In this document: piece after piece, positions 56,239-59,413 of the stretch | Numbering within the stretch: the stretch's first letter is position 1 | Layout: the number at the start of each line of letters is the position of its first letter | From: Deltaproteobacteria bacterium | GTDB taxonomy: Bacteria > Desulfobacterota > Desulfobacteria > Desulfobacterales > JAFDCJ01 | Reading direction: 5' to 3' | NCBI GenBank assembly: GCA_019312835.1 | Contig: JAFDCJ010000435.1 | Span: 1 to 64,000 of the forward strand | Length of the DNA stretch: 64,000 nt | Made by a program: the position numbers and the translations under genes | The notes under the pieces: model-generated | Databases searched by the model: none | What the model was told of the DNA's origin: nothing | What the model saw: only the letters and a program-made list of their open reading frames with translations

Positions 56239-56240
56239 TC

Positions 56241-56341
56241 CAGAGGACAGACGACAGAGGACAGAAAACAGAAATCTGAGGATGGGGTTGGCTTTAAATC
56301 ATTGTTTATCTGTCATCTGACCTCTGAAATCTGTTATCTGA
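56241..56341. repeat. inverted-arm word-repeat element (CAGAGGACAGA type)
   Basis: cagaggacagacgacagaggacagaaaacagaaatctgagg versus atctgtcatctgacctctgaaatctgttatctg. Confidence 0.8.
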
Positions 56342-56374
56342 ATCTTTTAACAGGAAACGCCTTCCTGGGTTTAA

Positions 56375-56968
56375 ATGAAAAATAAAACACTAACCATCAC
56401 ATTTCTGGTGCTTATCTTGGTGGCCATTGGAACGGTTGCGGCGGTATATATCGGATACCGACAGGTTTCCACCGCACCGGAGCAATTGCTTTCCTCGATC
56501 AAAGATGGCGCCGATTTGTCGCTGGGAAAAATTCGGCAGACCGCTACGCGTGACGGCAAAAAAGAGTGGAGCCTGGAGGCCGGCTCGGCGCATTATATCG
56601 AAAACGATAAAAAGGCTGTTTTAAAGAATCTGTTCATCACTTATTTTCTCAAAGACAATCGTGAAGTCTACCTGGAAGCCGAAGAGGGATTATTGCAGAC
56701 CGATACAAATGACATTGAATTTTCCGGCAATGTTGTGATAAGGAATGATGACTATCAGCTCAAAACCAGGCGAATGAATTACGAACACGAGCGCCGCGTG
56801 ATTTTCTCCAATGATCCGGTGCACATTTCTGGCGAGGCCGTAAATTTATCCGCCAGATCGTTAACATACGATCTAAATCTTAATAAAATTATTTTTGCCG
56901 GCAATGTGGAAGCCCTCATCACCGAGGATTTCGCGGTTTTTCCCGGTTCGGCTGGTCGGGGACAATAA
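56375..56968 (+). CDS. lptC: LPS export ABC transporter periplasmic protein LptC
   Basis: N-terminal TM; LGKIRQTATRDGKKEWSLEAGSAHYIENDKKAVLKNL; position after kdsA-kdsC. Confidence 0.85.
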   Translation: MKNKTLTITFLVLILVAIGTVAAVYIGYRQVSTAPEQLLSSIKDGADLSLGKIRQTATRDGKKEWSLEAGSAHYIENDKKAVLKNLFITYFLKDNREVYLEAEEGLLQTDTNDIEFSGNVVIRNDDYQLKTRRMNYEHERRVIFSNDPVHISGEAVNLSARSLTYDLNLNKIIFAGNVEALITEDFAVFPGSAGRGQ

Positions 56969-57091
56969 AATTATTCAGCCGCACCTGATCACAAGCAGGT
57001 AAAAGCTACGGGTTCGGGCTTTTTTAAAAATTATGCTGTAATGGTTGCAATTTCAAATCAACTCAATTAAAATATAGAAAATTGGCTATAA

Positions 57092-57107
57092 TGGCACTCA
57101 AATTGCA
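57092..57107 (+). promoter_or_regulatory. sigma-54 (-24/-12) promoter of rpoN
   Basis: TGGCAC-tcaaa-TTGCA, full match to TGGCACN5TTGCW, about 70 bp upstream of the rpoN start. Confidence 0.75.
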
Positions 57108-57177
57108 GGACGGAGGTGCCGCTCAACCCATCGATTTATTAACCCCAACGGCGATAATGCCAAGCCCGCGTATATAA

Positions 57178-58611
57178 ATGGCACTTGAACTAAGACAACA
57201 ACTAAAATTAACCCAACAGCTGATTATGACGCCGCAACTTCAAATGGCGATCAAGCTGTTGCAGCTGTCCAGACTGGAACTCATGGATACGATCCGAGCC
57301 GAGTTGGAAGAAAACCCGGCCCTGGAAGAAGTGCCCGAAGGCACGCCCAACGATCAGCTAACCGATGGGGCGGATAACACTTCCGCCGACGCCACCGAAA
57401 CCAAGGAAGTCACCATCGAGGAAAAGCTCCAGGAGGATATCGATTGGAGCAACTATCTGGACGAGTACAACACGCCGGGACGGGTTAATTTTGAAGCCGA
57501 GAATCGGGATACGCCCAAATTTGAATCCTTCATCGCCCACAAAGAGTCCTTGAATGATCACTTGCTGTGGCAGTTTCTGATGACCAAGCCGCAAAAGGAA
57601 GAAGAAAAAATTGCCAGCCTGATCATTGGGAATATAAACAAGGATGGTTATCTTCAGGTATCGACCCAGGAAATCGCCTACACGAGCGGTTTGCCACATG
57701 AAAAAGTCGAGGAAGTTTTAGCCATCATTCAGTCATTTGACCCGGTTGGCGTTTGCGCCCGTGATCTGAGGGAATGTCTCTTGATCCAGGCCAAGAACCT
57801 GGGGTTGGAAAATACGATCATCACCGATATCATCGATGAGCATTTGCCGAACCTGGAAAAGAAAAATTACAAGGCCATTTGCAAGGCGCTCAAGAAAAGC
57901 CAGGACGAGGTGGTGGCGGCCGTTAACGTCATCAAGGCCATGGAACCCAAGCCCGGCCGGCAATTTAGTGAAGAAACGCCTCAGTATATCAATCCCGATA
58001 TTTACGTTTATAAACTTGATAACGATTTTGTCATCATGCTCAATGACGACGGCATGCCGAAGCTCAGGGTAAATTCTTTTTATCGCAACTCCATCGGCCG
58101 CGGCAAGAAAGTTTCCGGGGAAGCCGAAGATTACATCCAGGAAAAAATGAGATCCGCCGCCTGGCTGATAAAGAGTATTCACCAGCGCCAGAAAACCATT
58201 TACCGGGTGATGGAAAGCATTTTGCGCTATCAGCGGGAATTCTTTGACAAGGGCATCGCCTATCTCAAGCCCATGGTACTCCGAGATGTCGCCCAGGATA
58301 TCGGCATGCATGAATCAACCATCAGCCGGGTGACAACCAATAAATATGCTTTCACCCCTCAGGGTATTTTTGAATTAAAATATTTTTTCAACAGTTCCAT
58401 TCGGCGAATGCACGGCGGGGCGATCGCCTCTGCAAGTGTCCAGGAAAAGATCAGGCAAATCATCCAGGGGGAGGATCCCAGAAAGCCCTACAGTGATGAT
58501 AAGATCGCCCAGATTTTAAAAAACGAAGAGATTCACATCGCGCGCCGGACAGTCGCTAAATACCGCGAAATGTTGAAAGTGCTGCCATCCAATAAACGCA
58601 AAGAACTATAA
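57178..58611 (+). CDS. rpoN: RNA polymerase sigma-54 factor
   Basis: LKLTQQLIMTPQLQMAIKLLQLSRLEL; RpoN box ARRTVAKYREMLKVLPSNKRK. Confidence 0.98.
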   Translation: MALELRQQLKLTQQLIMTPQLQMAIKLLQLSRLELMDTIRAELEENPALEEVPEGTPNDQLTDGADNTSADATETKEVTIEEKLQEDIDWSNYLDEYNTPGRVNFEAENRDTPKFESFIAHKESLNDHLLWQFLMTKPQKEEEKIASLIIGNINKDGYLQVSTQEIAYTSGLPHEKVEEVLAIIQSFDPVGVCARDLRECLLIQAKNLGLENTIITDIIDEHLPNLEKKNYKAICKALKKSQDEVVAAVNVIKAMEPKPGRQFSEETPQYINPDIYVYKLDNDFVIMLNDDGMPKLRVNSFYRNSIGRGKKVSGEAEDYIQEKMRSAAWLIKSIHQRQKTIYRVMESILRYQREFFDKGIAYLKPMVLRDVAQDIGMHESTISRVTTNKYAFTPQGIFELKYFFNSSIRRMHGGAIASASVQEKIRQIIQGEDPRKPYSDDKIAQILKNEEIHIARRTVAKYREMLKVLPSNKRKEL

Positions 58612-58625
58612 GGGGGTCTAAAAGA

Positions 58626-59159
58626 ATGCAGACATCCGTCACGTTTAAGAATATTGATCCTTCAGACCATTTAAAAGCTTACGTGAGTGAGAAACTGGAT
58701 CGTCTCGACAAATTTCTCGACAATCCGGCCGAAGCCAATGTCGTGCTGGCGGTCGAAAAATTTCGCCACATTGCAGAGATCAACATCGCTGGTGATAAGC
58801 TTACCATCATCGGCAGCGAGGAAACCAACGACATGTATTCCGCCATCGACATGGCGTTGGACAAGCTTGAAAAACAGATAAAAAAAAGCAAACAAAAAAT
58901 AAGAGAACGCCGGTCGACTTCTAAAAATCGCAACCGATCCATGCTGGAAGAAGCTGACCATCTGCCCGATGAGGACACCGAGCGGCAGATAAAGATACGC
59001 AACATCGAATATAAACCCATGGATATCGAAGAAGCCGTTTTGCAGATGGATTTAATCGAAGATAATTTTCTGGTTTTTACCAATGCCCGAAGTGACCGCA
59101 TTAATGTTCTGTACCGGCGCAGAGATGGTCACTACGGCTTGATTCAGCCCAATTCATGA
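58626..59159 (+). CDS. hpf: ribosome hibernation promoting factor, long form
   Basis: MQTSVTFKNIDPSDHLKAYVSEKLDRLDKF; C-terminal MDLIEDNFLVFTNARSDRINVLYRRRDGHYGLIQP. Confidence 0.93.
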   Translation: MQTSVTFKNIDPSDHLKAYVSEKLDRLDKFLDNPAEANVVLAVEKFRHIAEINIAGDKLTIIGSEETNDMYSAIDMALDKLEKQIKKSKQKIRERRSTSKNRNRSMLEEADHLPDEDTERQIKIRNIEYKPMDIEEAVLQMDLIEDNFLVFTNARSDRINVLYRRRDGHYGLIQPNS

Positions 59160-59190
59160 TTACTGTTTCATTTCATTGAATTGCCTTGAT

Positions 59191-59386
59191 GTGGTTTCAG
59201 AACCACGCCTGAGACCCATCGGCCTTTGGCGGGTGAATCCGTCCGAGGCAGACAGGCCCGAGGGGAGCGGATAAACCCCCGGATCACGCCCAAATACCCG
59301 CTGACAAAGCGGGATTTGATATCCACTTTACATAGGTGACGGCATTCAACAGACGGCACACCGTTGAAGGGGGCGGCATGACCGCC
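59191..59386 (+). other. hairpin-rich intergenic region between hpf and ptsN
   Basis: gtggtt-tcag-aaccac (59191-59206), cccgct-gacaa-agcggg (59297-59313), acgg-caca-ccgt (59353-59364), ggcgg-catga-ccgcc (59372-59386). Confidence 0.6.
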
Positions 59387-59413
59387 ACCACAGGATAGAC
59401 AATAGTTGAAAAC

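Follow-up and report, generated by a model that had tools for sequence, protein, structure and literature searches.

A predicted sigma-54 element in a possibly self-limiting, two-part promoter of rpoN in a Desulfobacterales genus

The window, the whole stretch of 64,000 nucleotides that was analysed, comes from a lineage of sulfate-reducing-type bacteria and carries the gene for sigma-54, rpoN, in the order kdsA, kdsC, lptC, a 209-nt gap, rpoN, hpf, ptsN and rapZ (kdsA and rapZ were identified from their own sequences). By Pfam, the activator-interacting, core-binding and DNA-binding domains are all present in the RpoN protein. The downstream gene hpf is probably co-transcribed with rpoN. The features of the locus are listed below.

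56375..56968, + strand: lptC (Pfam LptC), upstream neighbour of rpoN; lptA and lptB are missing between the two
56985..57025, + strand: weak hairpin and T-run after lptC (fold z = -1.0)
57045..57050, + strand: -35-like hexamer TTGCAA; TTGC kept in 7/7 genus members
57068..57073, + strand: -10-like hexamer TAAAAT; kept in 7/7 genus members (as TAAACT in one); predicted start ~57080
57087..57092, + strand: TATAAT named in the initial annotation; probably chance, not conserved
57092..57107, + strand: predicted sigma-54 (-24/-12) promoter element TGGCAC-TCAAA-TTGCA, TGGCACTCAAATTGCA; exact consensus, enriched in the genome, conserved in the genus
57178..58611, + strand: rpoN, sigma-54, 477 aa (Pfam Sigma54_AID, CBD and DBD)
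58626..59159, + strand: hpf (S30EA / sigma-54 modulation protein), after a 14-nt gap

A comparison with two sister lineages (L034 and L035) shows the order kdsA/kdsC-lptC-lptA-lptB-rpoN-hpf-ptsN-rapZ, with rpoN starting 1 nt after lptB. Among about 100 further Desulfobacterales rpoN loci, those for which the whole preceding gene was visible all have lptB immediately upstream, in most cases at a distance of 1-3 nt. The seven genus members with rpoN all differ in having lptC, not lptB, in this place. Of the eight genus genomes, all but G005 have a strong lptB match (~70% identity) on a different contig, and the same seven have lptA-like matches on other contigs too. Since lptA and lptB lie elsewhere in the genus and are contiguous with rpoN in the sisters, the long region upstream of rpoN can be traced, on gene order, to an operon break specific to this lineage. 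In G000, lptB and a divergent lptA-like gene sit on separate contigs (C550 and C111; loci L117 and L150). Across the genus neither gene lies next to lptC, and within the stretches that were read the two are not neighbours either.

The hairpin and T-run after lptC could conceivably insulate rpoN from the kds-lptC transcript; the hairpin is weak and was not called as a terminator. Between kdsC and lptC (56240-56345) there are about 100 nt of repeated GGACAGA...TCTGTCATCTGACCTCTG words with imperfect inverted repeats, which look like a repetitive extragenic element. The hpf-ptsN gap (59160-59413) measures 254 nt here versus 81-177 nt in the two sisters.

The initial annotation had described a full match to the -24/-12 consensus about 70 bp before rpoN. 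Its coordinates are correct, it has no mismatches, and exactly 70 nt separate the end of the motif from the rpoN ATG (57178). The element consists of TGGCAC (57092-57097), the spacer TCAAA (57098-57102) and TTGCA (57103-57107), and thereby holds GG at -24 and GC at -12 at the fixed spacing of TGGCAC-N5-TTGCW. Consensus spacing, counted from the C of the -12 GC at 57106, places the predicted sigma-54 start at ~57118, 60 nt before the ATG, which is a normal promoter position. With up to two mismatches to TGGCACN5TTGCW, 29 sites are found in the 64-kb window and 34 are expected in shuffles. Such degenerate sites are therefore not in excess, which would fit a chance occurrence of the consensus in an AT-rich intergenic region where sigma-54 polymerase plays no part. 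The site upstream of rpoN matches perfectly, and all the others in the window carry two mismatches. Over the whole 6.0 Mb assembly, however, exact consensus matches number 24 versus 2 for a reversed-pattern control. Because of this ratio an exact match in this genome would mostly be functional, with about 1 in 12 expected by chance. Most of the 24 are located just upstream of genes, for example 63 nt before a P-II (glnK-type) gene and 167 nt before a type IV pilin gene. The genome encodes a sigma-54 with all three domains and, since it also holds 41 Sigma54_activat domain matches, its sigma-54 system is by gene content in heavy use.

The upstream gaps of the seven genus members with sequenced rpoN (out of eight genus genomes) are 177-467 nt long, and their alignment reveals two conserved blocks amid otherwise unalignable sequence. 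The sigma-54 element is present at the orthologous place in five of the seven, as TGGCAC..TTGC in G000, G001, G002 and G003 and as CGGCAC..TTGC in G006. Its spacer is TCAAA in G000, TTAAA in G001 and G003, TTAAT in G002 and AAAAA in G006. The same alignment shows TCGCAC without a -12 in G005 and G007, which group together with good support, so that the element is eroded or absent in these two. Two members without the element would suit a chance match; against it stands the orthologous conservation in five genomes whose neutral sites have strongly diverged. The five genomes that keep the element share an identity of only 0.49-0.66 at the four-fold degenerate sites in rpoN. In a neutral simulation the ten core letters are as well conserved as observed with a probability of ~2e-6, a rough figure based on four-fold-site distances and a star-like tree, with no correction for the site having been chosen first. 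A chance origin of the element is thus very unlikely in view of both its genome-wide ratio and its conservation. The element is almost certainly a genuine binding site of the sigma-54 holoenzyme, as predicted from its sequence.

Outside the genus the picture is different. About 100 rpoN loci were searched over 1-3 kb upstream with one mismatch allowed and GG and GC required, some loci being counted twice, once per collection. Three matches were obtained (L039, L046 and L093), the reverse strand giving more, and these other Desulfobacterales loci show no sigma-54 element above background. Ten loci have lptB-rpoN gaps of 68-193 nt (L009, L030, L081, L087, L092, L093, L095, L099, L108 and L109) and none has a site within the gap, thus a gap alone does not bring the site. 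Pattern searches for the same architecture over 390 genomes of the class (148 genera) returned only this genome, using a strict pattern of low sensitivity that misses G001 too. The sigma-54 element at rpoN looks like a lineage-specific acquisition. Conservation in close relatives, which had been named as a check on the promoter, is found within the genus; elsewhere in the order rpoN has stayed linked to lptB and the motif is lacking.

The promoter likeness could also be a coding relic, left by a leader peptide or by duplication of the start of rpoN. The letters ATGGCACTCAAATTGCAG (57091-57108) read MALKLQ, to be compared with the rpoN start MALELR, and they open an in-frame 28-codon reading, MALKLQDGGAAQPIDLLTPTAIMPSPRI (57091-57177), with its stop directly before the rpoN ATG. 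Several rpoN starts of the genus are moreover one mismatch from the sigma-54 consensus (TGGCACTTGAACTGC). In three relatives, however, the ATG is replaced by CTG, CTG and TCG, and the frame length is not kept whereas the -24/-12 letters are. A leader peptide beginning MALKLQ was rejected, its start codon and frame being unconserved, and we regard a coding relic as very improbable. The sigma-54 element may have originated when the start of rpoN was duplicated over a short length, but this would not account for its present constraint. The rpoN starts of L002, L004, L006, L031 and L035 (TGGCACTTGAACTGC and variants) are each one mismatch from the consensus, probably through the coding constraint of MALELR.

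Upstream of the sigma-54 element lies TTGCAA-N17-TAAAAT (57045-57073), the only sigma-70-type promoter called in the region. It is 18 nt away here and 17-20 nt away across the genus members, and within the block TTGCNN-N17-TAAAAT the 17-nt spacing is invariant in all seven. The -35 hexamer fits 4/6 positions and shuffles yield 0.5 such promoters per region, so the case for this promoter is built on conservation. An activator site was considered for the conserved -35/-10 block and rejected: the block persists in G005 and G007, which lack the sigma-54 element, and its promoter spacing is invariant, and for these reasons a sigma-70 promoter fits it better. An IHF site (WATCAAN4TTR) in the block is a near-match by eye only and is not kept. 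The -35 block (57042-57060; also in L003, L006 and L031) contains an inverted repeat, TGGTT-N9-AACCA, perfect in G006, G005 and G007 and imperfect in the other genus members. It is possibly a repressor site over the -35.

Competition between sigma-70 and sigma-54 polymerases had been suggested initially from the TATAAT that overlaps the -24 element. This hexamer is indeed present at 57087-57092, but as a -10 element it fails, with no -35 at 16-18 nt and no counterpart in any other genus member. The idea of competition is plausible; the -10 named for it was wrong, and the conserved promoter is TTGCAA-N17-TAAAAT.

Enrichment over the control in the genome, orthologous conservation in the genus and proximity to rpoN all support the proposal that rpoN is autoregulated, and rpoN is probably a target of its own product. 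The -24/-12 element would form the downstream half of a two-part promoter, in which the sigma-70-type and sigma-54 elements are both kept and the surrounding leader is not. Once bound to DNA, sigma-54 polymerase waits in a closed complex that is stable but inactive until an activator acts. The closed complex covers roughly -34 to the start, and sigma-70 polymerase roughly -55 to +20. With both starts and both footprints placed by consensus spacing, the silent closed complex would occupy ~57084-57118, the initially transcribed region just past the sigma-70 start, and would overlap the sigma-70 footprint at ~57084-57100. Because it waits in this silent form, sigma-54 polymerase would obstruct the sigma-70 promoter as long as no activator intervenes. 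The sigma-70 promoter (start ~57080) would supply basal rpoN-hpf transcription, and an excess of free sigma-54 would damp its own synthesis. An enhancer-binding protein contacting the closed complex would turn it into a second rpoN promoter with its start at ~57118. Overall, the sigma-54 level would be held steady under resting conditions and raised when more of the factor is needed. We consider this explanation as a whole, a basal sigma-70 promoter damped by the sigma-54 closed complex together with an activator-switched second promoter, to be moderately probable; the negative sign of the feedback is what we infer.

The main rival is pure positive feedback, in which an ordinary activator-dependent sigma-54 promoter raises rpoN expression and leaves the sigma-70 promoter undisturbed. 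The element is of consensus strength, its predicted start is normally placed, the genome holds many activators (the 41 domain matches), and sigma-54-dependent rpoN transcription has been inferred in several classes (PMC12316311). On the other side, no conserved upstream site accompanies the element: no NifA (TGT-N10-ACA) site, NtrC-type site or shared dyad was found within 300 bp upstream in the five genomes, a search in which the sites of unknown activators would be unrecognisable. None of the 41 activator-domain matches lies on the contig of the window. In addition, the nearly fixed 17-20 nt spacing behind the sigma-70 promoter makes non-interference unlikely. We therefore judge positive feedback acting alone to be rather unlikely. 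Damping is favoured as the standing role and activation as the second one because of the E. coli precedent described below, the lack of an activator site in the 300 bp and the lack of an activator domain on the contig. Tentatively, then, a self-limiting rpoN promoter may have arisen after the loss of lptA and lptB, where the closed complex blocks the sigma-70 promoter with no separate repressor, activators convert it, and the amount of free sigma-54 is thereby controlled by free sigma-54 itself.

Control of the sigma-54 level is a question of substance, since sigma-54 activators are very numerous in Desulfobacteria (PMC12316311) and attempts to delete sigma-54 in Geobacter and Myxococcus failed (PMC4641369). 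Examples of feedback by sigma-54 on rpoN are already known elsewhere. rpoN is negatively autoregulated in Rhizobium leguminosarum, as cited in PMC3538637, and from that citation the likeness is that sigma-54 acts back on its own gene, as proposed here. That species belongs to another class, and here the mechanism is proposed from sequence, as a nested sigma-70/sigma-54 promoter after an operon break. A survey of 1,414 genomes inferred sigma-54-dependent rpoN in several classes; rpoN is in the sigma-54 regulon of Geobacter sulfurreducens and Dokdonia, documented in the former, and the dependence was not significant in other phyla or outside the listed classes, Desulfobacteria not being among them (PMC12316311). 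Those inferred promoters have a -24/-12 element before rpoN that points to autoregulation, as here, where it is found in one Desulfobacterales genus.

The consensus sequences reported for Geobacter, TTGGCACGGTTTTTGCT (PMC2725144), and Desulfovibrio, tGGcacg/tTGCt (PMC4641369), are of the same -24/-12 type as in the present genus. As far as those consensus sequences go, the spacer here differs in being A/T-rich (TCAAA, TTAAA) and without the G after TGGCAC. In main-text passages of PMC2725144, the case for tight RpoN control in Geobacter is made with the effects of overexpression and with deletions that failed, not with a mapped rpoN promoter; the passages found in the Desulfovibrio work do not name rpoN among the targets (PMC4641369).

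Work on E. coli has demonstrated, both in vivo and in vitro, that sigma-54 polymerase represses sigma-70 promoters that overlap its binding sites; every sigma-54 site with this effect has C at -12 (PMC4551910). The locus described here shares that C, and its sigma-54 site likewise falls inside the region that sigma-70 polymerase would probably cover. The four promoters tested in E. coli (argT, chaC, mdfA and patA; PMC4551910) do not drive rpoN, and repression is experimental there and deduced here. Compared with these systems, what is new here is the setting in one Desulfobacterales genus, the operon break and the nested sigma-70 element. The locus offers a traceable case, in which the operon break goes together with the appearance of a nested sigma-70/sigma-54 promoter, and the two genus members without the sigma-54 half provide a natural comparison.
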